DNA from: a virus | Virus record (IMG/VR): IMGVR_UViG_3300044624_004040 | Span: 1-35,176 of that record | DNA length: 35,176 nucleotides | Direction: 5' to 3' (one strand) | In this document: piece by piece, positions 2,866 through 20,700 of the stretch | Layout: each line of letters opens with the position of its first letter | How positions within the stretch are numbered: the first letter of the stretch is position 1 | The notes under the pieces: model-generated | What the model was told of the DNA's origin: nothing | Database searches by the model: none | What the model saw: only the letters and a program-made list of their open reading frames with translations | Made by a program: the position numbers and the translations under genes

Positions 2866-4530
2866 ATGCAACTACGTCCCTACCAACAAGCCGCGGTCAA
2901 CGCGGTCTACAACCATCTGCGTGATCGTGATGACAATCCCTGTGTGGTCATTCCAACCGCAGGGGGGAAAACTCCATGCATGGCAACGATCTGCAAAGAT
3001 GCGGTCACGCGATGGCAAGGTCGAGTCCTCGTTTTGGCCCATGTCAAAGAACTCCTGCAGCAGACAGCCGACAAGCTAACCGCAGTCTGCCCCGAGGTGG
3101 ACTTCGGTATCTACTCGGCAGGTCTGAAACGTCGCGATACAAACAATGCCGTCATCATCGCTGGGATCCAATCGGTGTATAAGCGTGCCTGCGAACTCGA
3201 TCGATTCGATCTGATCATTATCGATGAATCCCATTTGATCCCACCCGATGGCGAGGGGATGTATCAACAATTCCTCACGGATGCCAAGAAGGTCAATCCC
3301 CATCTGCGCATCATTGGGTTCACGGCCACCCCGTTTCGACTCAAGGACGGACCGATCTGTGCGCCGGAAAATATCCTTAACACGATCTGTTACGAAGTCG
3401 GGATCAAGGAGTTGATTCGCGACGGTTTCCTGTGTCCGCTGGTTTCCAAGTCTGGCAAAGACCAAATCGACTTCGGTTCTCTGCACGTTCGTGCGGGCGA
3501 ATTCGTCGCCGACCAGGTCGAAGCCCTCATGGACAGCGAGGCCCTTGTTGAGTCCGTGTGTCGCGAGATCGTCGAGCAAACAGCCGACCGAAACGCCGTG
3601 CTGATTTTCTCGAGCGGCGTTCGACATGGCAACCACATCGTCGATACCCTTCGAGACCAACACGGCATCGAATGCGGATTCGTTACTGGCGAAACCTCCT
3701 CGGAGGATCGAGACCGATTGCTCCAGCAGTTCCGCAGCGGGAGTCTCAAATACTTGTGCAACGTCAACGTGCTAACCACCGGCTTCGATGCACCCAACAT
3801 TGACTGTGTGGCCTTGGTACGACCGACGACATCGCCGGGACTTTTCTATCAGGCTGTGGGGCGCGGCTTCAGACTTCACCCGAGCAAACAGAACTGTTTA
3901 GTCCTCGACTTTGGTGGCAATGTTTTAAGGCACGGACCGGTTGATTGCCTGCGGATCAAACCTGCAGGAAGCCAATCGACAGGAGAAGCACCTGCGAAGC
4001 AATGTCCCAAATGCAATGCACTCATCGCGATGGGATACGCGAATTGCCCAGAGTGCGGTTTTACCTTCCCACCACCTGAAAAGCAGAACCACGAAGCCCA
4101 AGCGACCCAAGCACCAATCCTATCTGGCCAAGTCACCAACACGCGCTACGAAGTCACTGACACACACTACTACAGCCACCTCAAGCGTGGGGCCGCCGAT
4201 GACGCACCGCGATCGATGCGAGTCGATTACATGGTCGGCTGGCGATCCCACAAATCCGAGTGGATCTGCTTTGAACACTCCGGCTACGCACGCCAACGTG
4301 CCGTGGCTTGGTGGAAACAGCGATCCCGTGATCCCGTTCCCGAAACCACCGACGAGGCACTCGCGCGAATCGAAGGGGGTGCGATCGCTCAGACCCTCGC
4401 GATCCAAGTGCGCAGCGTCTCGGGGGAGGAATACGAACGGATCATCGACTACGAGCTCGGGCCGTTGCCCGAACCACTCGAACCACAACATTTTTCTAAT
4501 GCATTTACTGACGAGGAGATTCCGTTTTGA
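2866..4530 (+). CDS. SF2 DEAD/DEAH-type helicase with zinc ribbon and SSB-like C-terminal tip
   Basis: A 554-residue superfamily 2 helicase. Motifs in order: Q-motif-like LRPYQQ at the start, motif I PTAGGKT (30-36), motif II DESH (120-123), motif III TATP (153-156), and motif VI QAVGRGFR (329-336). A four-cysteine zinc ribbon follows (C380, C383, C394, C397). The last residues are TDEEIPF, which resemble the acidic DDDIPF tip of bacterial SSB. The start is ATG 2866 with GGAG (2855-2858) 7 bp upstream; longer versions would overlap the zinc-ribbon gene. Phage helicases of this kind often sit beside primase genes and probably remodel forks or recombination intermediates. The stop overlaps the primase start by 3 bp. 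Confidence 0.9.
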   Translation: MQLRPYQQAAVNAVYNHLRDRDDNPCVVIPTAGGKTPCMATICKDAVTRWQGRVLVLAHVKELLQQTADKLTAVCPEVDFGIYSAGLKRRDTNNAVIIAGIQSVYKRACELDRFDLIIIDESHLIPPDGEGMYQQFLTDAKKVNPHLRIIGFTATPFRLKDGPICAPENILNTICYEVGIKELIRDGFLCPLVSKSGKDQIDFGSLHVRAGEFVADQVEALMDSEALVESVCREIVEQTADRNAVLIFSSGVRHGNHIVDTLRDQHGIECGFVTGETSSEDRDRLLQQFRSGSLKYLCNVNVLTTGFDAPNIDCVALVRPTTSPGLFYQAVGRGFRLHPSKQNCLVLDFGGNVLRHGPVDCLRIKPAGSQSTGEAPAKQCPKCNALIAMGYANCPECGFTFPPPEKQNHEAQATQAPILSGQVTNTRYEVTDTHYYSHLKRGAADDAPRSMRVDYMVGWRSHKSEWICFEHSGYARQRAVAWWKQRSRDPVPETTDEALARIEGGAIAQTLAIQVRSVSGEEYERIIDYELGPLPEPLEPQHFSNAFTDEEIPF

Positions 4531-6752
4531 TTACTACATCCAATCCTGCATCATTGCTCCCATCCGCTTTGGCTTATCGCGAGAGTGGTCTTTCTGTCCT
4601 GCCGGCCAAGAGACTAGCGAAACGACCATCCCTTCCAGGATGGAAAAACTTTCAGTTGCGAATCCCGCAAGAGCGGCAGGTCGTCGAATGGTTTTCCAAA
4701 CCCGAAGATGCGATTTGCGTCGTCACTGGCCAAGTCAGTGGCAACCTCGAAATGCTCGACTTCGACCGAGGGGGTGATCGCTTCGAGGCCTGGAAAGAGC
4801 AAATCCCACCCGAGCTATTGTCTCGGCTGGTGATCGAGACTAGCCAGTCTGGAGGCAAGCACGTGATCTATCGCTGCTCGGAGCCGATCAATGGCAACAT
4901 GAAGCTTGCCATGGGATTTCGAGACGGTGCGATGGTCACTTTGATCGAGACTCGTGGCGAAGGGGGACTGTTTCTCTGCGCTCCAACCTTGGGTTACTCG
5001 CTCGAGCAAGGATCACTTACCGAGATTCCTGTGCTAACTCCCCAGGAACGAGAGATGCTCTTGGAGACTGCTTGGTCACTGAACGAATACTTGCCGACGG
5101 CCGACGTTCCTGCGGACTCGCAGTTCGTGCCCGAGAATCGACCAGGGGACGATTTCAACAACCGAGGTGACATCCGAGCCCTGCTCATCAAGTATGGCTG
5201 GACCTTGGTCAAGAAAGCGGAAAACGAACTCTGGCGTCGCCCGGGCAAGGCCAATGGCTGGTCGGCATCCCTGAAGGACAAGTCGTTTTATGTCTTTAGT
5301 GGCAACGCGGCTCCGTTGGAACCGAACCGCGCATACAGTCCGTTTGCGGTTTACGCGTGGCTTGAGTACGGAGGTGACTTTGAAATGGCAGCGCGAGTTC
5401 TACGCCAGCAAGGTTACGGTGGCGATCCGATGGGTGCTACCATCATTCAGCTTCATGAACCCAACGAGTTTGTGACTGAGCCGAGAAGTAAAAACGAACT
5501 TGTCGATCCGGGACCAGTCCCTCTGGAGATGTTGCGCATCCCGGGATTTGTCTCCGAGGTGATGGATCTGTGTTTGGCCACCGCTCCGTACCCGAACCAC
5601 GTGATGGCTTTCTCGGGTGCACTTGCGCTGCAAGCGTTCCTGGCTGGACGCAAGGTTCGAGACCCCGGTGATAATCGGACCAATCTGTATTTGCTCGGCT
5701 TGGCCCATTCGGCTGCCGGCAAAGATTGGCCACGGAAGCTCAACACGCGAATCCTATTCGAGATCGGTGCGGCCGGCTCGCTTGGGGAGCGATTCTCAAG
5801 CGGCGAGGGCATTCAAGACGCGTTGTATCTCTCGCCGAGCATGTTGTTTCAGACGGATGAGATCGATGGGATGCTCCAGTCGATGAGCAAGTCGAAGGAT
5901 GGCCGACATGAAAACCTCATGTCGACATTGCTCACGATGTACTCAACGGCCAATTCGGTGTACCCCATGCGTCGCAAGGCCGGCAAGGAATCACCCGGAG
6001 CGATCGACCAGCCGTGTTTGGTGGTCTTCGGAACCGCGATCCCAAACCACTACTACGAGGCACTCTCCGAGCGAATGCTTACCAACGGGTTTTTCGCTCG
6101 GATGATTATCCTTGAATGTGGTGTGCGAGGAGCCGGCCAGGAAGCGAAAGTCTTGGAAATCCCTGAGCGAGTCGTCGCCACAGCGAAATGGTGGAAGGAC
6201 CTGATGCCTGGACAGGGGAATTTGCAGTCGTGGCATCCAATCCCAACGATTGTTCCACAAACAGCTGAAGCGGTTGATATCCTGGCAGATACTCGAGTCG
6301 CAGCCGAGACCGAGTATCGCAACGCTGAGAGTCAAAACGATGCCGTTGGCACCACGGTATGGGGACGCGTCAACGAGCAGGCAAGGAAACTTGCGCTACT
6401 GTATGCGATCAGCGAAAACCATGCGGATCCCATCATCGGTGCTGCGGCAGCCAATTGGGCGACATCTTTGATGATGCATCAAACGCGTCGTATGTTATTC
6501 ATGGCCGGCAACCACGTGGCCGAGAATCCGTATCATGCCGACTGTCTTCGGTTGATCCGAAAACTGCAATTGGCACCCGATCGGCAGATGTCGCATAGCA
6601 TGTTGCTCAAACGGATGAAGATGAATGCGAAAGCATTTCAGGAGATCATCACGACCTTAGAGCAACAGGGTGACATCGAGCCCGTGAGCGGAACGACCCA
6701 AGGTCGCGCTGGTAGAGGGTATCGATTGGTCAAAGACTGGTCGGACCAATAA
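4527..6752 (+). CDS. Bifunctional Prim-Pol primase/polymerase with DUF3987-like helicase domain
   Basis: A 741-residue replication protein. The N-terminal third is an archaeo-eukaryotic Prim-Pol domain: catalytic DFD at 78-80 (EMLDFD), SGGKH at 108-112, and ETRGEGG at 141-147. The C-terminal half resembles DUF3987 phage helicase-like proteins. It has a P-loop-like AHSAAGKDWPRK with Lys399, a Walker B-like FQTDEID with Asp444/Glu445, and a winged-helix-like end around MLLKRMKMNAKAFQEI. The start is a TTG at 4527; GAGGAG (4513-4518) lies 8 bp upstream and is embedded in the helicase's last codons. It is the last gene of the operon and is followed by a repeat-rich region that may be its origin. 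The domain calls are firm; the P-loop is atypical for a Walker A motif. Confidence 0.87.
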   Translation: MITTSNPASLLPSALAYRESGLSVLPAKRLAKRPSLPGWKNFQLRIPQERQVVEWFSKPEDAICVVTGQVSGNLEMLDFDRGGDRFEAWKEQIPPELLSRLVIETSQSGGKHVIYRCSEPINGNMKLAMGFRDGAMVTLIETRGEGGLFLCAPTLGYSLEQGSLTEIPVLTPQEREMLLETAWSLNEYLPTADVPADSQFVPENRPGDDFNNRGDIRALLIKYGWTLVKKAENELWRRPGKANGWSASLKDKSFYVFSGNAAPLEPNRAYSPFAVYAWLEYGGDFEMAARVLRQQGYGGDPMGATIIQLHEPNEFVTEPRSKNELVDPGPVPLEMLRIPGFVSEVMDLCLATAPYPNHVMAFSGALALQAFLAGRKVRDPGDNRTNLYLLGLAHSAAGKDWPRKLNTRILFEIGAAGSLGERFSSGEGIQDALYLSPSMLFQTDEIDGMLQSMSKSKDGRHENLMSTLLTMYSTANSVYPMRRKAGKESPGAIDQPCLVVFGTAIPNHYYEALSERMLTNGFFARMIILECGVRGAGQEAKVLEIPERVVATAKWWKDLMPGQGNLQSWHPIPTIVPQTAEAVDILADTRVAAETEYRNAESQNDAVGTTVWGRVNEQARKLALLYAISENHADPIIGAAAANWATSLMMHQTRRMLFMAGNHVAENPYHADCLRLIRKLQLAPDRQMSHSMLLKRMKMNAKAFQEIITTLEQQGDIEPVSGTTQGRAGRGYRLVKDWSDQ

Positions 6753-6757
6753 ACCGG

Positions 6758-6943
6758 GGTGAAAGTTCTCCCAGAAATTCTCCCGACGTGGGTGAATCGA
6801 TGTGGAGGTCCAAAAGAACTTTGAGGGGTGAAAGAAGTGAAAGAAGTTTAGAAAAAGCCAATGAAAAGATTGACGAAAACTTCTTTCACCTTTCACCCTA
6901 TCTCATAACTCATATACATAAACACATAATTCTCTCTTTCACC
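6758..6943 (-). repeat. Element A: 186-bp inverted copy of element B
   Basis: Read on the minus strand this segment matches 13902-14090 co-linearly. It has GGTGAAAGAGAGA, a spacer of about 34 nt, an arm of type GTGAAAG-GAAAGAAGTTTT, a loop of exactly 26 nt (6850-6875), the opposing arm AAACTTC...TTTCACC, a gap of 62 nt, and a final TTTCACC. Element B has 36, 26 and 63 nt for the same intervals. On the plus strand the hairpin arms are 6825-6849 and 6876-6897. The spacer (6898-6930) is AT-rich. It may be an origin, a recombination site or a terminator. Confidence 0.72.
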
Positions 6944-7023
6944 TATATCTCACACAATACACACTCGCACGCACGCGTATGCATACGTGAGAGCGCTTGC
7001 GAGACGGGGGTGAAAGGGTGAAT
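6758..7023. repeat. Cluster of GGTGAAW repeats (iteron-like)
   Basis: Eight exact copies of GGTGAAA/T occur in 266 bp. Direct copies are at 6758, 6791, 6827, 7009 and 7017; inverted copies (TTTCACC) are at 6884, 6891 and 6937. A ninth near-copy (AGTGAAA) is at 6836. The AT-rich tract 6899-6960 lies within the cluster. The position, directly after a primase-helicase gene, is where phages and plasmids often keep a replication origin. The repeats are read directly; the origin role is inference. Confidence 0.65.
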
Positions 7024-7455
7024 CGGGGGAATTGGGAGAATCGACGATGCATCGATGGCTACCAAACAAACGATCAAAGCATCGCTACCAACATCACAAC
7101 CACCGCATCAAACCTAACGCAAAATTTGGCCTAATAGACGCGACGCACTTGCGTGATTGCAGTCGAAGGCCAACAATACAACATCTCGCGTGTGTGGGCC
7201 TTTTATGGGCCTCACGCGACGAGTGCCAAACTGGCACTCATGACGACCTCTGGCATGGGTCCTACCCACGATTTTCCAGCGTTTTAGGGGCGTGGGAACG
7301 GTCACCAAGTTAGAGAGAGTTTGTTTTGTGCGTGGGAATCTTTAATTCCTCGCGATCATCCAACCCAGCGACCCAACCAACCGAGCCAAACACACACCCA
7401 AAGACACATCGACAGAACCCTTTCCGTTTCGTTTCTCCCCTGGAAAGGCATGTTC
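7024..7455. other. Non-coding region with two strong hairpins before the methyltransferase
   Basis: No gene is supported here. Two adjacent hairpins are clear. The first pairs TCGCGTG (7186-7192) with CACGCGA (7213-7219), with inner GGCC/GGCC arms around a TTTTATG loop. The second is a perfect 8-bp stem, GAGTGCCA (7221-7228) with TGGCACTC (7232-7239), loop AAC. They are followed by a C- and A-rich, G-poor leader (7350-7435) that runs into the methyltransferase ribosome binding site. The region probably holds the methyltransferase promoter, its operator and/or a small RNA. A palindrome this tight could be a repressor operator. Confidence 0.5.
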
Positions 7456-8829
7456 ATGAAAATCGAACTTTGGTCGCTCGATCGCATTCGTCCGTATCCG
7501 AACAATCCCCGCATCAACGATGACGCTGTCGATGCCGTGGCTGCATCGATCCGTGAGTTTGGTGTTCGCCAAGCGATCGTTGTCGACACCGAAGGGGTAA
7601 TCATCTGCGGGCACACCCGCTTCAAAGCTGCTCAGAAGCTTGGGCTCGACAAGCTCCCCGTCCACGTTGCCAAAGACCTCACTTCTGAGCAGATCAAGGC
7701 ATATCGGATCGCCGACAACAAGACAGCCGAACTGGCCGATTGGAATTACGATCTGCTTCCGATCGAACTGGGGGACCTGCAAACCAACGGCTTCGATCTG
7801 TCTCTCCTTGGTTTCGACGAAGATGAATTGCTCAAGCTCCTCAAGACCGAGGTCGAAGAAGGTCTTACCGATCCTGACGACGTGCCGGCACCACCCGATG
7901 CCGCAGTGACGCAACCTGGTGATCTCTGGATCTTGGGCAACCACCGATTGCTCTGCGGTGACTCATCGAAACCCGAGGATCTCGATCGATTGCTCGGTGG
8001 CAAAACGATCCAATTGGTCAACACAGATCCGCCCTACAACGTGAAGGTGGAACCCCGATCGAACAACGCGATCGCAGCGGGTTTGTCATCGTTTTCCAAC
8101 GACAGCGCCTCGCAGAAACTCAAAGGGGGACAAGGCAACGCGGCATCGTTTGGGGTCGACCACGAGACCGGGAAACCCAAGCATCCACCGACGCACAAGA
8201 AGCTCCGAGCCAAGGATCGCCCCCTGGCCAACGACTTCGTGAGCGACGATGAGTTCGATCGATTGCTCGATGCCTGGTTTGGAAACATCGCTCGGGTGCT
8301 CGACCCAGGTCGTGGTTTCTACATCTGGGGTGGGTATGCCAACTGCGGCAACTATCCCCCGTTCCTCAAGAAGCATGGTCTGTATTTCAGCCAAGCAATC
8401 ATCTGGGACAAGATGCATCCAGTGCTGACCCGCAAAGACTACATGGGCGCGCACGAGTGGTGTTTTTACGGTTGGTTGGAAGGGGCGGCCCACGTGTACC
8501 TCGGGCCCAACAACGCTACCGACCTGTGGCAGATCAAGAAGGTCAATCCGCAGTCGATGGTCCACCTGACTGAGAAGCCCGTCGAGCTTGCGGTCCGCGC
8601 GATGCAGTACTCGTCACGCCCCGGGGAGAACGTCCTCGATCTGTTTGGTGGGAGCGGATCTACCTTGATTGCTGCCGAGCAGACAGGTCGTAATGCGTTC
8701 TTGATGGAACTCGATCCGCTGTATGCCGATGTCATCGTGGATCGATACCAACGGTTCACAGGCAAGCCCGCAGTGCTGGAACGGACGGGCACGTCACCGA
8801 TTCCGATGCGTGCTACGGATGCCAAGTAG
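7456..8829 (+). CDS. ParB-like domain / N6-adenine DNA methyltransferase fusion
   Basis: A 457-residue protein with an N-terminal ParB/sulfiredoxin-like domain, seen as VKPYxxNPR-like RIRPYPNNPR, VVDTEGVIICGHTRFKAA and RIADNKTAELADWN. A beta-class amino-methyltransferase follows. Its catalytic motif IV is DPPYN at 191-195 and its SAM-binding motif I is FGGSGS at 397-402, in the IV-then-I order. DPPY favours N6-adenine over N4-cytosine. Such fusions are common in phages and prophages and modify phage or host DNA, usually without a partner restriction enzyme; none is seen here. The start is ATG 7456 with GGAAAGG (7442-7448) 7 bp upstream; ATG 7450 is too close to it. It converges on the leftward genes with a 2-bp gap. 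Confidence 0.9.
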   Translation: MKIELWSLDRIRPYPNNPRINDDAVDAVAASIREFGVRQAIVVDTEGVIICGHTRFKAAQKLGLDKLPVHVAKDLTSEQIKAYRIADNKTAELADWNYDLLPIELGDLQTNGFDLSLLGFDEDELLKLLKTEVEEGLTDPDDVPAPPDAAVTQPGDLWILGNHRLLCGDSSKPEDLDRLLGGKTIQLVNTDPPYNVKVEPRSNNAIAAGLSSFSNDSASQKLKGGQGNAASFGVDHETGKPKHPPTHKKLRAKDRPLANDFVSDDEFDRLLDAWFGNIARVLDPGRGFYIWGGYANCGNYPPFLKKHGLYFSQAIIWDKMHPVLTRKDYMGAHEWCFYGWLEGAAHVYLGPNNATDLWQIKKVNPQSMVHLTEKPVELAVRAMQYSSRPGENVLDLFGGSGSTLIAAEQTGRNAFLMELDPLYADVIVDRYQRFTGKPAVLERTGTSPIPMRATDAK

Positions 8830-8831
8830 CA

Positions 8832-9152
8832 TCACAGCTTGTGGCACCTCCAATGCCCGTCTTCGAAGACGTAGAGATAGTTCGCATCGCAATCGCGAGC
8901 GAACTTCATAAGCGACCCACGGTCGAGCAGAAGCTTTGGGGGACGTGCCCGAGAAAAACACTCGGGCTCCCCATCGCTCGCATTCAAACATCGCAACTCT
9001 CCCCCGGCGATAAGCGCCGAAACTTTCTCGATGGAGTTATGCCGTTGGTTGAGAATCACCCCAGCATGTTCCGGGTAGCCATCGAAGTGCAGGTAGGCAG
9101 CATGGTAGCTCCCATCGTTGTCTGCATAAGCAATCGTTGCTCGTGTCGCCAT
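8832..9152 (-). CDS. Conserved phage-type hypothetical protein (MATRATIAY family)
   Basis: A 106-residue protein beginning MATRATIAYADNDGSYHAAY and continuing YLHFDGYPEHAG. This start is shared by small phage and plasmid proteins of unknown function. An exact AGGAGG lies 8 bp before the start codon, which makes the start secure. There is no signal peptide or membrane segment, and three of its four cysteines are scattered, without a metal motif. It is the last gene of the leftward unit headed by element R1 and ends 2 bp from the methyltransferase stop. Confidence 0.8.
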   Translation of the reverse strand: MATRATIAYADNDGSYHAAYLHFDGYPEHAGVILNQRHNSIEKVSALIAGGELRCLNASDGEPECFSRARPPKLLLDRGSLMKFARDCDANYLYVFEDGHWRCHKL

Positions 9153-9164
9153 GGTTTGGTCCTC

Positions 9165-9383
9165 CTAGGATTGAATGTTTGCGGTGGTAAGGATCTCAAT
9201 CACATCGTCGGGCATCGAAAGCATCAGTTGCCGACCGTTGTCCCAATCGATTTCGATCTGTGTCCAACCATGGTGTGGGTGGATCGCGCGAACGGTACCA
9301 AGCGATCCTGCGGGAATCGGATCTGGATCTTCGGGCATGTGAATCAATCGGATCCGATCTCCGACTGCGGGTATTGCGGTCAT
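9165..9383 (-). CDS. DUF4314 family protein
   Basis: A 72-residue protein whose whole length matches the DUF4314 pattern: GDRIRLIHMPEDPDPIPAGS near the N-terminus, then GTVRAI, and IEIDWDNGRQLML toward the C-terminus. The fold is probably a small SH3-like beta barrel. The biochemical role is unknown. AAGGAAAG lies about 6 bp before the start. It sits 12 bp upstream of the next leftward gene and 18 bp downstream of the previous one, inside the R1 unit. Confidence 0.82.
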   Translation of the reverse strand: MTAIPAVGDRIRLIHMPEDPDPIPAGSLGTVRAIHPHHGWTQIEIDWDNGRQLMLSMPDDVIEILTTANIQS

Positions 9384-9401
9384 CGTTGGCTTTCCTTGCG
9401 T

Positions 9402-9653
9402 TTAGAGAATCTTGCCAAGCATGCTGTTACGCATCGCGTCGAGTGCTTCGCAGGCGTAGAGGTGTTCGGTCAAAAGCGGGCCGGCCGTCTGTGGTTGCTG
9501 TGCGTCGGCGATCTCCAGCGCGTCGGCCAAGGTGCGAAGACCCTCGATCGCCTTGTAGTAGGCTTCGCGGATCTCTTGGGCTTGGTGTGGATCCATCGTG
9601 CGGAAGGCGTCGCGGAGAATCTTTTCGTTTGCTTTTTTGTCTGCGGTGGTCAT
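9402..9653 (-). CDS. Hypothetical helical protein
   Basis: An 83-residue, mostly helical and charged protein (MTTADKKANEKILRDAF...). It has no recognisable catalytic or metal-binding motif. AAGGAACA lies 5 bp before its ATG, and the gene is spaced normally within the R1 unit. It could be a small regulatory or scaffolding protein; nothing in the sequence decides this. Confidence 0.65.
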   Translation of the reverse strand: MTTADKKANEKILRDAFRTMDPHQAQEIREAYYKAIEGLRTLADALEIADAQQPQTAGPLLTEHLYACEALDAMRNSMLGKIL

Positions 9654-9692
9654 GGTCGTGTTCCTTGTCGTGGTTGTCAGGGTTGTTGGCGG

Positions 9693-9986
9693 CTATTGGT
9701 TCTTGAGCAGGTATTGCAGCAGCTTCTGTTGTTCGTAGAGCTTGTTGAGTTCGGCCTTGGCTTCTTTGGCTTCGCGAAGATCTCCGTCGGCAAAATCCGT
9801 CCAGCTCAGGCTGCAGGGCTCGTCGTTCATCATCGCGGTTGCATCTTCTACGGCTCGTTGGGCTCGCCAAAGCATTTGTTCGGCGGCCTTGGCAACCCGC
9901 TTCTTGGCATCTGGAATCATCCAATCGAGCCGTTGCAGTTGGTTCTGGATCGCGTGGGCGGTTGGGTTGGTGGTCGTGTCGTTCAT
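9693..9986 (-). CDS. Hypothetical coiled-coil protein, first gene of the R1 unit
   Basis: A 97-residue protein, Lys/Glu/Ala-rich, with a C-terminal segment (AKEAKAELNKLYEQQKLL) likely to form a coiled coil. The start was set at the ATG ending at 9986, where GGAG lies 8 bp upstream. The frame stays open to 10136, but that extension translates the repeated upstream element R1 and is not believed. No family is recognised. Confidence 0.65.
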   Translation of the reverse strand: MNDTTTNPTAHAIQNQLQRLDWMIPDAKKRVAKAAEQMLWRAQRAVEDATAMMNDEPCSLSWTDFADGDLREAKEAKAELNKLYEQQKLLQYLLKNQ

Positions 9987-10018
9987 CGTCGCTTCTCCGT
10001 GTTTGCGTTGGGGTTTTT

Positions 10019-10143
10019 GTTTGGCGTTACGACACAGTTCCCATGCTTTGGGAAGAACATCAAGCCGATGTGGAAAGTAATGTTTCGGAATCTGCAAGAA
10101 TGTTTTCGAGCCCCACAAACGCCACCGCTTGGCCACCGTTGCG
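10019..10143 (-). promoter_or_regulatory. R1: copy 1 of the repeated upstream element
   Basis: This lies upstream of the leftward unit 9986-8832. It shares with R3 the exact 12-mer CATCAAGCCGAT (10058-10069) and with R4 the 11-mer ACAAACGCCAC (10115-10125). It shares the GGCGTTA...ACACA block with R2. The ACACA block lies about 45 bp before the start codon. It is probably a promoter plus 5' leader. The rest of the gap to 10232 holds a further GC-rich stretch without a gene. Confidence 0.65.
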
Positions 10144-10232
10144 TCGCATTCCGCGTTGGCATAACTAGGCCATCCGACGACAAAACGCCCACACGTGCCA
10201 AACGTGGGGCGCTGGTTGGAAGTAAGGCACGG

Positions 10233-10472
10233 TTAGCGCCGGAGCCAATTCCGAATCGTCTTGAGTTCAAACCGATCGAAACCCGATACGGCATAGTCCT
10301 GGCCGTTGTGTCCTCGGGCGATCAAACGGTCCCCACGGCGCTCGACGTACTCGACCGTGGTGTCGAGCGATGGGTCGTCCTCGGATTGGACTTGGTACGA
10401 ATAGTCGCGTTCGGGATACGCTCGCTGGCCATCGGCCAAGTCGGTGACCAAATGGATTTGTCCGATGTGCAT
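10233..10472 (-). CDS. Hypothetical protein
   Basis: A 79-residue protein (MHIGQIHLVTDLADGQRAYP...) with an alternating beta-strand pattern and a GHNGQDYAVSGFDRFEL segment. No motif is recognised. The ATG at 10472 begins 1 nt after the previous stop, with GGGGAA nearby. A longer version from ATG 10487 would overlap the previous gene by 14 bp. It is the last gene of the R2 unit. Confidence 0.62.
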   Translation of the reverse strand: MHIGQIHLVTDLADGQRAYPERDYSYQVQSEDDPSLDTTVEYVERRGDRLIARGHNGQDYAVSGFDRFELKTIRNWLRR

Positions 10473-10473
10473 G

Positions 10474-10662
10474 TCAGTTCCCCGCATGGGATTCGTGTTG
10501 GATTGGTAAAGGGGGATCAAGCTCTTCGGCGATCAAGAGAAAGATCTCGGAGAGTTGGTTGGCATCGATCGAATCGACCTTGCCCGTTTGAAAAGCCTCT
10601 TCGAGTCGCAGAGCGACCTTTCGCATCGCGTCTGCGACTCGGTAGTTGGGATCCGAGTTCAC
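10474..10662 (-). CDS. Hypothetical small helical protein
   Basis: A 62-residue protein with a helical middle (AMRKVALRLEEAFQTGK) and a leucine-rich segment near the end. The start is a GTG overlapping the upstream TGA as GTGA, with GAGGTGG a few bases upstream. It is the only gene of the leftward cassette in a different reading frame. Function unknown. Confidence 0.6.
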   Translation of the reverse strand: MNSDPNYRVADAMRKVALRLEEAFQTGKVDSIDANQLSEIFLLIAEELDPPLPIQHESHAGN

Positions 10663-11204
10663 TGGGCCACCTCGGCGTTGGCGCTAGCGGCTACGAATCG
10701 GCCCCGCTCGGTCTTTACGAATCGCGAGGTCTCGCCCTTGGCAAGCTCTCGGAGGATCGCGCTGTAGAGAGTCGCATGGGGTGTCTTGCCACCAGGGCTT
10801 GTCCAGTACCCCTTGCTGGTCATCGCCTCGATCATCTGCTGGACGTTGAGCGGCTCGGTTGCCTCACACAAAACCTTGTGGGCGGCAGCCAAGGCACTCA
10901 TTCGCTTCGGTTGATCTCCGTCGGCCTTCTTAGCGACTCGCTTGGGTTTGATCGGAACTACGTCGGCGGCTGTATCGACCGGTTCTGCGTTGACCGTTTC
11001 GCTTTGCGTTTTCGCAGCCGTCTTGCTTTTGCCAACCTCGCCCTGCAATCGCTGAGCGCTTTTGACGTGGATCTTCTTGCCGGTTGCGAGGTTCGTTGCG
11101 TTCCAACCACCGCTGGCTTTCTCGCTATCGATCTGAACCTCGACCTTCTTGCCGGTGACGTTCGCATAGTACTTGCCACCGATCTTGACCTCTGCCTTCT
11201 TCAT
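10659..11204 (-). CDS. HARE-HTH winged-helix protein
   Basis: A 181-residue, two-part protein. Residues 1-55 form a small beta-rich domain (KIGGKYYANVTGKKVEVQID) followed by a low-complexity linker rich in Ala, Lys and Thr. Residues 102-174 match the HARE-HTH (HB1/ASXL/restriction endonuclease) winged helix: MSALAAAHKVLCEA, then MIEAMTSKGYW, then TLYSAILREL and RGRF. HARE-HTH domains occur in ASXL proteins, RNA polymerase delta subunits and restriction-related proteins, and are thought to bind nucleic acid. The start is at 11204 with GGGAGA 7 bp upstream; an ATG at 11243 has no comparable site. It is a candidate regulator of the cassette. Confidence 0.8.
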   Translation of the reverse strand: MKKAEVKIGGKYYANVTGKKVEVQIDSEKASGGWNATNLATGKKIHVKSAQRLQGEVGKSKTAAKTQSETVNAEPVDTAADVVPIKPKRVAKKADGDQPKRMSALAAAHKVLCEATEPLNVQQMIEAMTSKGYWTSPGGKTPHATLYSAILRELAKGETSRFVKTERGRFVAASANAEVAQ

Positions 11205-11294
11205 TCGCCTGTCTCCCGTATTGGAACCGTGGTTAGCTGCCATCGTCAGGCCGCTCGCACAACCGAGCGACGATCCCGCGTGCGGGATTTCGGC

Positions 11295-11621
11295 TTACGA
11301 TCCCCAAACCAAGTCGGCCAACCCGCATCCGAGGAAATCAACCACCACCTGGATCTCGGTGGTCGCGGCCGGTACGTCCAACCCGCGGTCAAAGTTGAAA
11401 AGCGTCTTCTTGGTCTTGATCTCTTGGATCCAAAGCTTCGAGATCTTGGTGCGTCCGAGTTCGTACTCTTCGCTCTCGGCGTGTTCGGCAAAAACCAAGG
11501 CTTCGAATCGAACCGTATCGTTGATCGTGCCTCGGACCCAAGCGCCACCGCAGGAGGTTCGCTTTTCGATCTTGGTGATCTTCAGGTCGAGGTCTGTTAC
11601 GTCGATCTTGTTGTTGGCCAT
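11295..11621 (-). CDS. Conserved hypothetical protein, first gene of the R2 unit
   Basis: A 108-residue soluble protein with beta-strand-rich segments ISKLWIQEI and FNFDRGLDVP and a C-terminal VVVDFLGCGLADLVW. The pattern recurs in phage-type small proteins, but I cannot name the family with confidence. CGGAGA lies 8 bp before the ATG, in a leader nearly identical to those of the genes starting at 9986, 12071 and 13232. It heads the unit 11621-10233, which also makes the HARE-HTH protein. Confidence 0.7.
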   Translation of the reverse strand: MANNKIDVTDLDLKITKIEKRTSCGGAWVRGTINDTVRFEALVFAEHAESEEYELGRTKISKLWIQEIKTKKTLFNFDRGLDVPAATTEIQVVVDFLGCGLADLVWGS

Positions 11622-11655
11622 CTTTGTTTCTCCGTGTTGGAAAGGGTGGTGCTTC

Positions 11656-11760
11656 GTTTGGCGTTAACACACATGAGCCATGCGGTTTGCAACACAGCAA
11701 GCAGGATTCGCATTCATTTCCAAAAATGTTTTCATGTTTCCCAAACATGCAAAAAAGCCC
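11656..11760 (-). promoter_or_regulatory. R2: copy 2 of the repeated upstream element
   Basis: This lies upstream of the unit 11621-10233. It carries GAGCCATGCGG (11675-11685), identical in R3, and TGCGGTTTG-AACACA, which matches R4 with one mismatch. The GGCGTTA-ACACA block is about 47 bp before the start codon. It lacks a clear CATCAAGCCGAT core and has an AT-rich upstream half with repeated ACATG. It is probably a promoter or leader. Confidence 0.62.
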
Positions 11761-11798
11761 GCCCATTTCTGGGCAAGCTTCGCGAAACATGCACATGT

Positions 11799-12071
11799 TT
11801 AGTTGTTGCCGGCGACGTCCCAAGCTCGCTTGGTTCCGTACCCGAGCTGCTGGCCTTCGACGATGTAGAGAACCGAATCTTCGGTCGCATCGTCGTCATC
11901 ATCCCCATCCTCGTCGTCCTCATCGAAGTCGTTGATCTCGGCCCCCGATGCCAAACCGCAGATGGTGTTTTCGAATGGCCAATTCTGCTGGGTCATCAAG
12001 CGAACCTCAGCGTCACCACCGATCTCGTCGCGGTAGTCTTCGAGGCGTGCAATCAATTCGTCGATCGTCAT
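11799..12071 (-). CDS. Small acidic phage-type protein (MTIDELI family)
   Basis: A 90-residue protein starting MTIDELIARLEDYRDEIGGD, with EVRLMTQQNWPFE in the middle, a run of Asp/Glu (residues about 48-63), and an end VLYIVEGQQLGYGTKRAW. Both conserved segments recur in small phage and planctomycete proteins of unknown function. The long acidic stretch could mimic DNA or dock to a basic partner; this is inference. CGGGAGA lies 7 bp upstream of the start. It appears to be a one-gene unit headed by R3. Confidence 0.78.
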   Translation of the reverse strand: MTIDELIARLEDYRDEIGGDAEVRLMTQQNWPFENTICGLASGAEINDFDEDDEDGDDDDDATEDSVLYIVEGQQLGYGTKRAWDVAGNN

Positions 12072-12102
12072 GTTTGTTTCTCCCGTCTGTTTGAAAATGG
12101 AT

Positions 12103-12225
12103 GTTCAACGAACGTCCCAACACAGGAGCCATGCGGATGGAAAAGCATCAAGCCGATTACCGAAGCATTCAGCGGCAATTGCCGAGATTGTTTTGCATCG
12201 CACCAAACCAACGACGTTCGCACCG
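12103..12225 (-). promoter_or_regulatory. R3: copy 3 of the repeated upstream element
   Basis: This lies upstream of the acidic-protein gene. CATCAAGCCGAT (12146-12157) is identical to R1, and GAGCCATGCGG (12126-12136) is identical to R2. The CACA block is about 48 bp before the start codon. The remaining 12226-12374 has no supportable gene. It contains a GC-rich CCGC...GCGG pairing just after the amidoligase stop that might act as a weak terminator. Confidence 0.65.
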
Positions 12226-12374
12226 GTCGCTATGCATTGCATGCGTGGGGGATTACTAAGCGATATCCGAGAAAGGCGTTTTGTGGGGCACTGTCGCGAC
12301 CGGTTCCCATGAATCGTTCCAGTAATGGACAACACCGCCCAGGGTCGGGCAGCGGGGTCTATGGCTGGTCGGCT

Positions 12375-13232
12375 CTAGGCAGCTTGGTCGTACTTCTTGG
12401 CCATCTCGAGGAGTTTGTTCTTGATCGTCTTCCATTCGCGGTTGGTCTCGCCGGTGATCTCGCCGAAGATCTTGTTGCGAAGCTCACCCTTGTACCAACC
12501 TTTGGTCCAACCCAATCGGTAGAAGAGGCGGTTGAGTTCTGTCTCGCCGAACCCGGCTCCGGGTCGATCCCAGCAGCTCTTGGTTCCATCTTTCTTGGTG
12601 TAGTCCCAATCCGCGCATCGTTTGGTATTCATCGCCAGCTCTGCCAACCCCAGGACCATCATCAGGTATCCGACCACTTTGGTCTTGTTGAGCGTTCCGG
12701 CGAAGGCCCGGAATTCGATTCGGTTCTTGCCTGCTGCAAGGTGCGTAAGGTTCAGCAGGTGGTAGCGATCCGCTTCGCATCGGTTCTTAGCGGCATCCTT
12801 GTCCCCGTATTGTTTGATCCGTTTGGTGTAGACCGTTTGTTCGCGTCGTCGGCTGCCGGTGCTTGCGAAGATCGCTTTCTCATGGTTGCCGACCAGGGAA
12901 ATCAATCTGGCCAAGGCGGCTGCGTCGCCGTTCCATTCGATCGTTATGTGCAGCCCGCAGCTTGCGTTGACCCGTGCTCCGTGTTCGTTGATCTTGTCGA
13001 TCGCGTCTTCGATTTGTTTGAGGCCTTCGTATCCCTTGAGCTTGGGGCTTACGAATTCGCATCCCTTGCGGTTGGGTGCCTCTGGTTTGATGCTCGCGTC
13101 GCGTTCTGCTCGCCATCCGGTGGGGAGCCAAGGTACTTGGTATCCGTGGTGGTATGGTCCGATCGGTGTGGTGTCGCTGTTTGGCAGGGTGGTCTCGAAT
13201 TCGATTCCGAAAGCGATCTCGTTAGCGTTCAT
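12375..13232 (-). CDS. Amidoligase family protein
   Basis: A 285-residue protein with the signature set of the putative amidoligase (COOH-NH2 ligase, glutamine-synthetase-like fold) family. It has FGIEFETTLP at the N-terminus (G9-E13), D45ASIK followed by CEFVSP (58-63), CGLHITIEW (92-100) and NRIEFRAFAGTLN (170-182). These enzymes are predicted to use ATP to form amide bonds, perhaps on peptides, cell wall or small molecules, and are found in phages. The start at 13232 has CGGAGA 7 bp upstream; an upstream ATG at 13301 would translate part of R4. Substrate unknown. The downstream neighbour is the small acidic protein. Confidence 0.85.
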   Translation of the reverse strand: MNANEIAFGIEFETTLPNSDTTPIGPYHHGYQVPWLPTGWRAERDASIKPEAPNRKGCEFVSPKLKGYEGLKQIEDAIDKINEHGARVNASCGLHITIEWNGDAAALARLISLVGNHEKAIFASTGSRRREQTVYTKRIKQYGDKDAAKNRCEADRYHLLNLTHLAAGKNRIEFRAFAGTLNKTKVVGYLMMVLGLAELAMNTKRCADWDYTKKDGTKSCWDRPGAGFGETELNRLFYRLGWTKGWYKGELRNKIFGEITGETNREWKTIKNKLLEMAKKYDQAA

Positions 13233-13282
13233 CTTTGTCTCTCCGTTTGGGTTGGGTGGGTCGGTCGTTTGCAATCGCCATT

Positions 13283-13410
13283 GCGTTTGCGTGTGACACA
13301 TTCAGCCCTGCGGTTTGAAACACATCCAGCCGATAAAGCATGTTTTTCCCAGTCTTTTTGCATGTTTTCCGGTATCCCAACAAACGCCACGGTTGGCGAC
13401 GTGTGGGGTT
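13283..13410 (-). promoter_or_regulatory. R4: copy 4 of the repeated upstream element
   Basis: This lies in the divergent gap between the amidoligase and the rightward gene at 13508. CATCCAGCCGAT (13323-13334) differs from the R1/R3 core at one base, and ACAAACGCCAC (13380-13390) is identical to R1. The GACACA block is about 63 bp before the amidoligase start. The rest of the gap (13411-13507) should hold the rightward promoter; no clear box stands out. Confidence 0.65.
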
Positions 13411-13507
13411 CAAAACGCATGTGCCCAAGGGGCCGAACATCGAAACAAGTCGCGCCGGTGGGGCCCGTGTTGGCCACGGTGCGAAACCTTTATGAAGGGA
13501 GCCTGGC

Positions 13508-13714
13508 ATGAGCAGCGGAAAGAGTCCGATCGACCCGAATCGACTTTCTGTCGAACAAGCGGCAAAACTCCTCTCGGCAGCAGCCAAGATTCGCATTCCT
13601 GAACAGCAGATCGCAGATGACCTTGCCTCCGGTGCGCCCCAAAACAAGGACGGAACGATCAGCCTCGTAGCCTATGCAGCCTGGATGCTCAAGGAGATGT
13701 CTCGTGGCGAGTGA
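13508..13714 (+). CDS. Small phage-type protein
   Basis: A 68-residue protein with helical segments LSVEQAAKLLSAAAKI and LVAYAAWMLKEM and no metal site. GAAGGGAG (13493-13500) lies 7 bp upstream of the ATG. Its end overlaps the next start by 11 bp, so the pair is coupled. Such paired small proteins are familiar in phage-like regions before packaging genes, but no packaging gene follows here. Function unknown. Confidence 0.68.
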   Translation: MSSGKSPIDPNRLSVEQAAKLLSAAAKIRIPEQQIADDLASGAPQNKDGTISLVAYAAWMLKEMSRGE

Positions 13715-14063
13715 TCCAAGGAAGCTCAAACCGAGCGAGCTATGTCGGCTGCTCAACTCAACACCGCTTGGCGAAGTCCTCTCCGATCGACAGCTCCATC
13801 GTCACCGGATGCGAGCTGGTAATCGCATCGGCGATGGCAAGCACGTCGATCTGCTTCGTTACATCGCGTACGCGAACGTGTTTGTGTTACGTGTGTATAT
13901 GGGTGAAAGAGAGAGAGTGTGTATATATAACTATTTTTCTGCGAGCTACCGTGAAAGAAGAAAGAAGTTTTGGCCAACAAATTTGCTGGTTATTCTGAAA
14001 CTTCGTTCTCTTTTTTCACCTCATTTTAGCCGTTTAGCGAGCCCATCTCCGTTCCCCGTTTGA
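13704..14063 (+). CDS. Phage-type DNA-binding-like protein, probably with a disrupted C-terminus
   Basis: A 119-residue frame starting at GTG 13704, with AAGGAG (13690-13695) 8 bp upstream. Residues 1-56 look like a genuine domain: KLKPSELCRLLNSTPLGEVL, then RQLHRHRMRAG and RIGDGKHVDLLRYIAY. The basic RQLHRHR helix and the GDG turn suggest a small helical nucleic-acid-binding protein. From about residue 60 the sequence becomes low complexity (RVYMGERERVC...) because it translates element B. The most likely reading is that insertion or recombination at the repeat replaced the original 3' end. Whether the product is functional is unknown. Confidence 0.55.
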   Translation: MASDPRKLKPSELCRLLNSTPLGEVLSDRQLHRHRMRAGNRIGDGKHVDLLRYIAYANVFVLRVYMGERERVCIYNYFSASYRERRKKFWPTNLLVILKLRSLFSPHFSRLASPSPFPV

Positions 14064-14090
14064 TGGTGGTTTTGAGGGATGCCTTTCACC
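13902..14090 (+). repeat. Element B: 189-bp inverted copy of element A
   Basis: GGTGAAAGAGAGA (13902-13914) is followed by a 36-nt AT-rich spacer. Then come hairpin arms GTGAAAGAAGAAAGAAG (13951-13967, extending to 13971) and AAACTTC...TTTCACC (13998-14020) around a 26-nt loop (13972-13997), a 63-nt gap, and a last TTTCACC (14084-14090). The layout matches element A on the opposite strand. The first part overlaps the tail of the gene at 13704. Confidence 0.72.
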
Positions 14091-14718: not shown

Positions 14719-17700
14719 ATGCAAGGCCGTAACCATCGAATGGTAGCGAAATCACGCGAGAATCGTCATCGTCGATCGGAATGGCGAAAACTTATTCTGG
14801 AGCCCCTCGAAGATCGAAGGTTACTTGCGACGGTCAGTGTCACAACATTCGCTGATAACAACGACAGCGAAATAGTCTCGGATCCCACCTACAATATTAG
14901 CTGGCTGGCGTTCAACAAGGGGCCTGACGGGCAGGTAAGCCTTCGAGAAGCAATCATAGCCGCGAACAATACATCTGGTCTGGATACAATCAACTTCGCG
15001 ATACCAACGAGCGGTGGCGGGGACGAGGGCGGTGGAATCGGAGTTGGCATCGGAGTTGGTGGAGGCGGGGGAGGATCCGCGACTTGGTCTATCATCATGG
15101 TGGGATCGTCCGGGCTGGGTGCGCTCCCTGTTTTGACGAGCCCAGTAATCATTAATGGATATTCGCAATCGGGCGCATCGGCAAACACGAGCACGACATC
15201 AAGTAATGCAACGATCTTGATTGGGCTTGATGGAACTAGCGCTGGGCTCAGCGCGAGTGGACTGACGTTGGGTAGTGGAAGTAGCGGGAGCTCGATCCGG
15301 GGCCTTGGAATCCAAAAATTTGGAACATCGGGCGTTTTTGTTGGCAGCTCGAGCAACACCATCGCTGGTAACTTCATCGGATTGACGAACGCCGGGACGG
15401 TATCGTCTCCTAACGGTGTCGGCATTAGCGTAATCGGTGGCAGCAGCAACACGATCGGTGGTGTTTCCGCAGCGGACCGAAACCTCGTCTCAGGAAATAC
15501 TGGAGCTGGGATCTCGCTCCAAATATCCTCGAACTCGAACGTGGTCTTAGGCAATTTCATAGGACTAAGTGCATCGGGATTAGTCAGCATCGGGAATTCG
15601 GTAGGTATTTCCATCGAGAATTCGAGTTTCAATACGATTGGAGGAACGATCTTAGCGAGCCAGAACACGATCTCCAGTAATTTGAATGAAGGGATCACGA
15701 TTGCAGGTCCATCAATCGGAAACGCCATTCAAGGAAACGCGATTTACGGTAATGCCAAACTGGGCATCGATCTCATTGCACCAAATGACCCTCCTTCAGG
15801 CGTAACCCCCAATGACGACTTGCTCACATCAGGGAATCCCAACCTATCGATCGACACCCCCGTCATCTCAACGATTTCATTGAACAACGGAATTGCCACA
15901 CTCACCGGCTATGTTGGGGCGACTCAGGCAAGCGGAGCATCGATCTTTGCAAACGCGAGAGTCGAATTCTTCTTGAGCGACAATAGTTCCACGAATGGCA
16001 GTGGAAAACGCTACGTCGGCTTTCTCACAGCAAACGCGTCCGGTGCGTTTGTCGGCAATATCGACTTGAACGACTACATCACGGTTTACGTAGGAACCGA
16101 AACTTTGACTGCTACCGCGACAAACGCTACAGGAAACACTTCGGAGTTCGCGGTCAACAAGCCGATCCTACCCCTATTCGTCGCCGTCGTCGACCAAGCC
16201 ATTGCGACTGAGGCTGGTGGTGTCAACAATGGGACCGCAGGGACGAACCCGACTGGCAATGTACTCACCAACGATACCGGGTCGGGCAACACGGTCATCG
16301 GCGTGGCAGCCGGGCTGGTGAGTAACCCCAACGGTGGGGTCGGCACAACGTTAACCGGTGCCTACGGTTCTATTAATATCGCGTCAAACGGACAGTTTAC
16401 ATACACGGTCAACAACGCTCTTTCGGCCGTACAGGCGTTGCGCAACACATCCACGACCGTATCAGACGTCTTTTCCTACACAGCTCGGAATTCATCGAAT
16501 GCTACGGCGTCATCCCAAATAACCGTCGTCATCCAGGGCGCGAACGATACACCCACGATCATCAGCGACGGCGGAGATTCGCAGACCAACGTCACCACTT
16601 ACGAGTCGACCACCTATGTCACGACCGTGGTGGCAGCAGACGTCGACGCCAATTCTTCGATCACGTACACGATCACTGGGGGTGCCGATGCGATTAAGTT
16701 TGCGATCACCAATACCGGTGTCTTGTCCTTCATTACGGCACCTGACTTCGAAGCGCCGACGGACGTAGGTGCCAACAACATTTACAACCTGAATGTCCAA
16801 GCAAGCGATGGAACACTTACAACAACGCAATCCATCGCCGTCCTGGTTCTCAATGCACTCGAGTCCGTCGGAACCGACACGTATGGTGGGATCTATATCG
16901 ACGATGGAAGCGATGGATTTACTACGACGGGAACCTGGACACAAACAGGAAACGGTTGGCAATCCGATGTTCGGACGGTACCAGCAGCAAGCGGCTCCAC
17001 TGCGACTTGGACATTCACCGTACCGGCAGGTATTTATAATGTCTCTGCGCACTGGCGAACGCAGAACTATGGCGCAACCAACGCCCAATTCAATGTTGCG
17101 GGCACGACGGTGTCGGTGGATCAGAGCGTCGCGCCAAATGATTTCTATTCCTCTGGGATCAACTGGAAACGCCTTGCGAACTTCACATCGACTGGAACCG
17201 CGGTCAATATTACACTCAGTGGGTTGGCCGGATCGGTGGGAAACCTAGTTGCAGACGCAATTCGGCTAGAAGGCGTTACGAGCACTCTGGCACCTGAGTC
17301 AAACGAAACGATATCGACGGCATCCACCATCACGTTTGTTCCTGGAGTTCCAGCATCGGTGGGTAATTACCTCGGGGATGGTTCCAATGGCGAGAAGGAT
17401 GTTGACTTCTACAAAGTAAATCTCGCGGCCAGCCAGAGTATCGATATTCAGGCGGAAGCACTCGCTTCGGAGTTTATCTCAGACCGCAGTACACTTCAGT
17501 CCCGCATTCGCGTTTTCAATGCGACTGGGACGCAGCTCTTTACCGCTGCATCGTCAGGAGGAGTGGATCCATCGGTCTCATTTCAGGCGACGACTGCAGG
17601 TTTCTACTACATCGGGATCTCGTCTGCTGAGAACGCGAGCTACAGCCCAACATCTCTGACCGGCCGAGTGAACAACAGTACTTTTGGGAGTTACCGACTC

Positions 17701-20700
17701 CACGTGCTCGCTCCCCTTGTTCCACCGACCACAACCTATAACCAAACCTACACGGTGGACACCGTTTCCGATGTGGTCAATACGACGACCATGTCCCTGC
17801 GGCGAGCGATCAATAATGCACAGGCTGCAGGCGGTTCCAACCTGATTGTTTTCTCACCAACTATCACTCAACCAGTATTGCTGGACAGCGGATTACCCAG
17901 CATCACCGGCAACATTACGATTCGGGGTGCGGCCTCGGGAGCGTTAACCGTGATCAGCCCGAATCCCAGTGCGTCGTCGAAGCTTCTCTTCACGGTTGCT
18001 TCTACTGGTGTGCTTCGGCTTGAGAATATGGTACTCCAGGGTGCCTACTCAACCACCGCAAACGGCTCGTCTGCCAACGTGAGTGGGCAACTGTGGTTGG
18101 ATCGATCCGAAATCCGTAACAGCCAATCGAATCTCGGTGGAGCGATCTATGCCGGAGGCACTGGCTCCATCGTCATGGTGGACTCAACCATTTCAGATAG
18201 CACGGCGACCCGTGGGGGAGGTATCTATTTGGCGTCCACGAGCGAGCTGACTGCCATCAATAGCACCTTTTCGCAAAATGACGCGAGCCTCACAGGGGAC
18301 GCGATTTCGAACTACGGCACGGGTGCCGTTTCGCTGTTCAGTTCGACGGTGGCAAGAAACGGGCTTCCGTCAACCAACACCTCCGAAACACTCCAAAACC
18401 TAACGTCCGGTCGTTTCGTTCTTCGCAATTCGCTTGTGGTTGACAATCGTTCGATTGCCGACACGTCCGGCACTTTCATTTCCCATGGCTTCAACGTAAT
18501 CGGAAATGCACGATCTGCGGTTGGATTGTTGACGATGAGTTACCTGCGCGACCAAGTCGGAGGGCAAAGCCTGGCGCCCGTCCTGTGGGGAGCGGTAGGC
18601 CAGCTCTCCCATCAAGGCGGCCGCACACGGTCGGTGATGCCCGTTGCAACCAGTCCCGCAATCGATCGGGGAAGCAGTTACGGCAGAAGAACAACCGACC
18701 AACGCGGAGCCGACCGGTTCCTCGACGGTCCCGATCTAGGAAGCTTGTCTGACACGCAAAAGCAAGTAGACATCGGTGCTACCGAGTTCGGTACCTACTT
18801 CGTCAACGTAACGAACGACGCCCTGGACACCTCACCAACCACCACGGATGGAATTGTCGACACGGATCCGACGGCAACCGGTTCCCAGGTGTCGCTGCGC
18901 GCTGCGGTCAAAGAACTGAGTAATCTTGCTGGCTGGACTGGCGTCTTGGAACAGTCCACGCTGAACAAGATGGAAGGTATCGTCCGTTTCGAACCGACCA
19001 TTGCAGAAGTTGTTCTCAGCAACTCAGGAAACAACGAGCAAAACTCGCAAACGGGAGATTTGGACGTCTGGGGAAACATCAGGGTCTTGGGCAACGACAC
19101 GCCGACGGTAATCACTGCGAATTGGATGGTGTCCAATTCACAGACGGGCCCTCAGTACTTTGCTTTGAACGATCGGGCATTTCAAGTTGGACCGAATTCC
19201 ACGTTGACACTTGAAAAGGTAAAGCTCGCAGGCTTCCGAAGTCCCGACGGCACGACTCTTGATGGCGGGAATGGTGGTGCGATTTTCAACGACGGTGGTA
19301 CCGTTACGCTCAAGCAATCGGAGATTTTCTACCCTTATCTCAACTCATCGATATGGAGTGGAAAGAATTCAGCGGTTCGCGGAGGAGCGATCTATACCCA
19401 GAACGGTCGCGTTGAGGTTTTCGGATCCAAGATTTCCTTGAACTCTGCAGTGGATGGCGGTGCCATTTATGTTCAATCCGGAGAATTGCTTGTCGATCAG
19501 CAGTCGACTATTGAGGACAACTCGGCAGTCGGGAGAGGTGGTGCGATCTATGCCAACCCGAGCACGATCACGATCGATGGGCAAAGCATCATCCGCCGTA
19601 ATCTTGCAGACATTGCGGGCGGATCTTTACACCTAAATTCGGGTGTAACGACGACCATTCAAGGCGCGTCGCAGATCGATTCCAACGCTGGTTACTCCCA
19701 AGTACTCGCATCCGGGGTCGCCACCAAAGGACTCGCGATCTACAACCTTGGCACCCTGACCATGCGAGGGAACTCAACGCTCTCGAATCACACAATCTAT
19801 GGAGAAAGTGCCCTGTACAACAATGGAACGGCAACACTCGACAATGTAGTTCTATCCAACAACATCGACACGGCCGGTTCGAGCGTAATCCGGAACGACT
19901 ATGCAGGAAAACTCACGTTCTCTCACAGCACCTACTCGAACAATGGAGGGACGGCCACCAACGCAGGAGGCTTAGTCAATGAAAACGGTTGGGTTCGAAT
20001 CGACGATGTTCAATTCCAAAACAATACCATATCAGCCGCAAACGGCGGGCTCATCACCAATCGCGGCGTGAATGCCGATATGGCAATCAGCAATTCTCGC
20101 TTCGACCATAATCATCCTGGCATCGAACCTGGGGCTCCCGTTCTCTACAACCAGTCGGGAAATCTGAAGCTCGATGGCTCGAGAATCGAATACACGTCGA
20201 ACACGGCAGGATTCTATGCGACCTCGACAGCGATTCGGAACTTGGGAGTGCATGAGTTCATCGAGAAGTCCGAGTTGAGCGTGCTGCCCATCGCTGCGGA
20301 CATTGATCCCAACCAAACCGAGATTTTCGTCCATAGCTATGCGGCCATTGAGTCGCTGCCACTTCCTGTGAGACTATTGATCGGTGATGAGGTTGTCAAA
20401 GTCACCGCCTTGAATCGGTTTCAAACGTCGCTCACCGTCGAACGCACCAAACCGGTCTCGCATCCAAGGACATCCTCTGTCAAGATTTATATCGACCACG
20501 TTCAAAACCGTATCTCGGTGGGAGATCCTGTCAAGTTCGCAAAGTACAACTTGCCCTTCGACATTCTGATCGACAACGAGATCATGACCGTCACGAAGAT
20601 CGAGGGGGCAGTCCTCCATGTGATTCGTGGGCGAAACCTTACCCGTGCATCAGAGCACCAGTACCCATTTCAGGTATGGGCAGTATCGGGTGGGCTGAGC

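Follow-up and report, generated by a model that had tools for sequence, protein, structure and literature searches.

A putative iteron-type origin beside the primase gene of planctomycete-associated phages and its truncated, inverted homologue

We investigated two inverted elements, A and B, in a 35-kb virus record (35,176 nucleotides in all; hereafter, the window), which an earlier note had taken for a matched pair bracketing a methyltransferase and cargo genes. We consider it probable that a temperate tailed planctomycete phage uses A as its replication origin, and that B is what is left of the origin of a second, inverted segment, joined by a rearrangement. Judged by sequence and position, A belongs to the iteron-type origins and lies directly 3' of a Prim-Pol/DUF3987 gene; initiator binding and origin firing are what we infer. 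Among relatives, the iteron word follows the C-terminal winged helix of the primase, not the rest of the protein.

On the plus strand, the left end of the window carries a phage replication module (PD-(D/E)XK exonuclease, AAA ATPase, DUF669, RusA, helicase and the Prim-Pol/DUF3987 primase-helicase), followed in order by A, the ParB_N-methyltransferase, cargo, a small gene, the start of a terminase gene, B and a giant gene (Table 1). The cargo, between the methyltransferase and the small gene, includes minus-strand genes for an amidoligase-like protein and a HARE-HTH protein. The methyltransferase reading frame is open from 7321, and its start is likely at 7456 (many homologues begin at query residues 42-46). 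The giant protein bears the N-terminal motif LEPLEDRRLLA, which we take to be a motif of planctomycete surface proteins. Relatives of the primase-helicase were found in viral and planctomycete contigs, and the MAGs in which relatives occur include some with the name Pirellula and some of other planctomycetes. An intact relative (L016) has the terminase, portal, head protease and tape measure genes of a tailed phage. Contig L013, which reaches further left than the window, has an integrase and an excisionase-like gene before the replication module, beside a DUF1559-type host gene, and thus points to an integrated prophage.

Table 1. Features of the window, with coordinates, strand and basis of assignment.
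Feature	Position	Strand	Basis
Prim-Pol/DUF3987 primase-helicase gene, presumed replication initiator	4527..6752	+	Pfam Prim-Pol E 2.3e-11, DUF3987 E 7.9e-9
C-terminal winged-helix domain (predicted), presumed origin-binding domain	6477..6749	+	AF2, Foldseek, word prediction by domain identity
Element A, putative complete iteron origin	6753..7023	-	Architecture matched in relatives
Hairpin of A, paired inverted iterons around 26-nt loop	6826..6898	-	ssDNA fold
G+C-rich stem-loop region of A, between inner and outer iteron sets	6945..7005	-	Position conserved in relatives
ParB_N and N6/N4 DNA methyltransferase gene, after putative origin A	7456..8829	+	Pfam
Large-terminase gene, first ~55 codons, cut off at B	13704..13867	+	No relative's homology reaches beyond 13867-13869
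Probable rearrangement breakpoint, from terminase homology to origin homology	13865..13872	.	BLAST ends
Element B, best read as truncated origin of second, inverted phage segment	13869..14090	+	66-69% to A and to origins of L010, L092
Hairpin of B, weaker counterpart of the A hairpin	13949..14021	+	-10.6 kcal/mol, z -2.1
Giant 6558-aa YD/Rhs-repeat-like surface protein gene	14719..34395	+	Between B and second, inverted primase C-terminus

Some features of the window and its relatives were recorded in their own right. A search of Rfam returned no RNA family at A or B; the sole match in the window was a type II hammerhead ribozyme in the cargo (11231-11295, minus strand; RF02276, 43.5 bits), immediately 5' of the HARE-HTH gene. 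Minus-strand cargo genes have repeated leaders in common (10016-10065, 11653-11702, 12104-12153, 13304-13370 and neighbours), 50-67 nt long and 60-70% alike with a common RBS-start motif, as if the same control element stood in front of each of them. The segment at 14514-14708, which immediately precedes the giant gene, is a member of a host repeat family; two MAGs contain many copies of this family. Regarding attachment sites, no tRNA was found in the window, and an 11-mer, TAACTATTTTT, common to the integrase-proximal flank (L247, 8554) and B (13928), was rejected as a candidate: about 2.6 chance matches are expected, and no right end matching it was found. Copies of the phage integrase gene's 3' end (L247, 8648-8700) number 5-13 in each Pirellula-like MAG and often follow one another on a contig at intervals of 3-5 kb; those in G024:C156, G022:C13 and G021:C126 suggest arrays of integrase-bearing elements at one kind of site.

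The primase stop codon occupies 6750-6752 and the first iteron of A begins at 6759, which places A immediately 3' of the initiator gene, as in relatives. We found nine GTGAA words in A (6759+, 6792+, 6828+, 6837+, 6889-, 6896-, 6942-, 7010+ and 7018+), and the iteron sets at 6759-6896 and 6942-7018 flank an A+T-rich stretch (6897-6930), in agreement with the consensus of relatives. In those genomes, the primase stop is directly followed by iterons, an A+T-rich stretch, an iteron, a G+C-rich stem-loop and an iteron. A strict scan labelled 68 of the 122 post-primase positions in planctomycete-associated phages, versus 2 of 1,955 windows drawn at random from the same loci. Folded as single-stranded DNA, the hairpin of A reached -17.8 kcal/mol (z -7.4; matched by none of 200 shuffles), and the fold of the G+C-rich stem-loop by itself was weak (z -1.6). 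The iteron words differ among relatives (GTGAAAGA, GTGAAGGA, GTGAA[AT]C, GTGAAAAG, GTGACGG and others), with GTGAAACG being the word type of one relative's origin. No recognisable word was present in the first 450 nt at 33 of 126 loci (about a quarter), some of which have cargo inserted before the origin and others winged helices with no word assigned.

The AF2 model of the primase C-terminal domain (pLDDT 77; H18-32, E37-39, H40-47, H51-64, E67-74, E77-84) and its Foldseek matches, mostly winged-helix DNA-binding proteins, suggest with moderate confidence that the domain has winged-helix topology. A PDB sequence search with this domain gave no significant match, the best being a MarR-type repressor (E 0.048). 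The nearest neighbour by domain predicted the iteron word in 82 of 93 cases and the nearest neighbour by the 300-aa core in 48 of 93, compared with 46% for guessing the commonest word. Likewise, word and core were uncorrelated (-0.03), and a partial Mantel test of word versus domain gave r = 0.30 (p = 0.001); on the protein side, the nearest-neighbour and partial Mantel tests are independent of the wing and word classes. Wing type and word agreed in 24 of 24 and 47 of 47 cases, these classes having been drawn up after inspection, so that the Fisher p for wing versus word is optimistic. On the core tree, all 9 independent, well-supported pairs differing in word also differed in wing type, in the same direction (p = 0.004).

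The earlier view of A and B as homologous inverted elements was borne out: they align over 228 nt at 66% identity (E = 7.6e-16), and an inverted-repeat search returned an A/B pair of 78 nt at 72% and another of 18 nt at 94%. The motif GGTGAAAG occurs eight times in the window versus 1.17 expected by shuffling (0 of 100 shuffles reached eight), always in A or B; in 20 relative contigs, its clusters are single per contig. The near-equal internal intervals were also confirmed (GGTGAAAGAGAGA, 13 and 13; spacer, 34 and 36; 5' arm, 21 and 21; loop, 26 and 26; 3' arm, 23 and 23; CTTTCACC, 8 and 8), and the gap proved nearly equal as described, although it measured 61 versus 62 rather than 62 versus 63. 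The two are not, however, like partners. A extends beyond the right edge first drawn for it, to 7023, taking in the iterons at 7010 and 7018 and the G+C-rich stem-loop at 6945-7023, whereas B is a truncated homologue that has lost the counterpart of 6945-7023: it is without the outer stem and outer iterons and keeps four GTGAA words (13903+, 13951+, 14019- and 14089-) versus the nine of A. The hairpin arms common to both fold strongly in A but weakly in B. Conserved spacing is best explained by shared ancestry as origins, not by paired function. The suggestion of two origins accordingly holds for A and, by ancestry, for B, and the idea that the arms are under selection while the filler diverges suits A-type origins, in which the iterons are conserved and the filler is free.

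The left edge of B coincides with the end of the terminase homology: in BLAST alignments, the terminase side stops at 13867-13869 and the origin side starts at 13865-13872. An intact copy of the gene (L245) matches the phrog_38 terminase (E 2.5e-32) and Pfam GpA_nuclease, and an intact terminase on a related contig of the same MAG as G021:C35 is 92% identical up to 13869. The junction occurs in three contigs only, all of the window's lineage (the window, L013 and MAG contig G021:C35), and in all three it has one orientation relative to its immediate flanks. The last of these (L235/G021:C35) is 99.5-99.98% identical to the window from 11365 on and continues for ~960 nt past the window end. About 640 nt past that end lies a primase C-terminus in minus orientation, 81% identical to that of the window and with the same GR-type wing, a right flank that rests on one third-party MAG whose contig ends inside this second primase copy; a search for viral contigs bridging the copy found none. 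Because an inverted primase C-terminus lies beyond the giant gene, B is best read as the clipped origin of a second, reverse phage segment, parted from its primase and left at a rearrangement breakpoint. Since B stands exactly at the terminase truncation, its inverted pairing with A would be a by-product of the rearrangement, and the mirror-image arrangement is probably accidental. B is presumably inactive; it may retain weak activity, given that four words of the right kind are kept and that the primases of this lineage (the window's and the second copy on L235) have the matching wing. Separately, a repeat of ~77 bp, 96-98% identical and spaced by 1.6-3.4 kb in another planctomycete MAG (L235 497-573; L274 2104, 5521, 7726; L275 6136, 7759), lies where the giant-gene segment gives way to the second primase copy and is a possible cassette or attachment site.

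Contig L013 offers a natural swap. It is 99.2% identical to the window over 7095-16391, B included, but across 6505-7095, which covers the end of the primase gene and A, a single block of unrelated sequence has taken their place; this block has another winged helix (MP.. type) and no GTGAAAG words. By this alignment, the primase C-terminal domain and origin A appear to have moved as one block; B remained unchanged, old word kept, while A was swapped. These observations bear on a reading in which the primase-helicase binds both A and B and the two work jointly in cis, as ori1 and crr do in satellite phage P4. A two-site system of this kind is known from P4, where the initiator binds via its C-terminal winged helix, and it would account for the same word in both elements and for the four words kept in B. 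Nevertheless, a two-site origin should not tolerate a change of primase domain and A alongside an unaltered B, and B is truncated with a decayed hairpin. In addition, a scan of 92 relatives whose word was identified, covering 1.45 Mb of their DNA, detected no further iteron cluster; the four matches listed in that scan are the origin itself, beginning inside the primase gene. We thus regard joint action of A and B as very unlikely.

Less probable again is that A controls the primase operon or the methyltransferase, as an operator or a terminator, with the primase winged helix as an autorepressor. A lies after a stop codon and ahead of the next gene, which fits, and the winged-helix model resembles MarR-type regulators, but the stem of A does not combine G+C richness with a following T run, and the architecture fits PICI origins. 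Moreover, 1.5 to 3.6 kb of cargo parts the primase from the origin in L010 and L171, where the origin still adjoins the methyltransferase. An operator role may exist on top of the origin function. We give little credence to recombination between the inverted primase copies, left of A and right of the giant gene, by which a ~29-kb stretch would flip; if this were true, the initiator's DNA-binding domain and the adjacent origin would be switched, yielding a phase-variable replication module with a giant toxin-like gene. In the MAG with the second primase copy, contigs stop inside the primase at nearly the same residue, as repeats would cause. Least credible of all is the earlier proposal that A and B are ends of one element or recombination sites at which the 7-kb segment flips. 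In its favour, the two are inverted repeats of ~200 bp, between which recombination is conceivable, though it would be weak at 66% identity. Against it, the flipped form was in none of the contigs found, the three junction contigs have one orientation, no dedicated invertase was seen in the window, the broken terminase gene accounts for the edge of B, and the relatives have single copies, an outcome that the earlier note itself had named as telling against such a role.

As a separate observation, contigs end inside the primase gene in L009, L015, L017, L019, L050, L054 and G021:C57 and C35, several of them near residues 630-655; such ends would be expected if the C-terminal part were an exchange hotspot in natural populations.

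Under the preferred reading, with A as an origin and B as a displaced remnant of another, the carrier would be a temperate tailed phage that infects Pirellula-like planctomycetes and resides in the host chromosome as a prophage. Through its C-terminal winged helix, the primase-helicase from the gene just upstream would bind the GTGAAAG iterons of A. With iteron sets on either side of the A+T-rich and hairpin region, the A+T-rich stretch may be melted by the primase-helicase, which would then load and prime, by analogy with PICI origins (PMC6092414) and pRN1 (PMC4234260), and copying would start there. The rearrangement would have joined B to the large-terminase gene after ~55 codons, and the giant gene of ~20 kb would now separate B from its own primase end.

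The A/B pair itself is ordinary wreckage, whereas A opens a large natural data set. In ~90 phage initiators, the winged helix can be read against the iteron word that is its presumed target. The words fall into at least five classes, close relatives have switched between them repeatedly, and a recognition code for winged-helix initiators becomes directly testable. Our literature search turned up little on the replication biology of planctomycete phages.

In PICIs, the origin follows pri-rep on its 3' side and contains an A+T-rich region with an iteron set to either side of it (PMC6092414). The origin described here is like those of PICIs and SaPIs in its position directly 3' of the primase/initiator gene, its two iteron sets and an iteron sequence that varies among members (PMC6092414). 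PICIs, however, are satellites without their own structural genes, whereas the carrier here is a tailed phage: the intact relative L016 has its own portal, head and tail genes, and the window's segment lost its terminase end. The initiator also differs, being an archaeo-eukaryotic-type Prim-Pol with a DUF3987 helicase, and a hairpin and a G+C-rich stem-loop are added. In P4, the primase alpha is of the Toprim type and there are two cis sites (ori1 and crr), whereas here one site per genome is the rule, with one iteron-bearing cluster per relative and a B that did not co-change in L013. The likeness to P4 lies in a fused primase-helicase, whose C-terminal winged helix binds iterons in P4 (its origin-binding domain is cited in PMC4234260); no P4 entry appeared among the best 50 Foldseek matches listed. 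The pRN1 origin lies 3' of its own Prim-Pol-helicase gene (orf904) and has an essential stem-loop, and the same layout is noted for some phages (PMC4234260). By domains and position, our system resembles pRN1 in combining a Prim-Pol-helicase-winged-helix initiator with a stem-loop origin just 3' of the gene, but pRN1 is without iterons, whereas here the iterons co-vary with the winged helix. In PLE satellites, initiator and origin co-swap, and the origin-cutting ICP1 nuclease Odn is thought to be the driver (PMC8263062). As in those satellites, the DNA-binding domain of the initiator and the origin appear to be exchanged jointly while the rest of the genome stays. PLEs have a RepA_N initiator and three ~30-bp semi-palindromic iterons, whereas here many words occur across a large phage group. 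The present case would extend initiator-origin module swapping from cholera-phage satellites to planctomycete phages.
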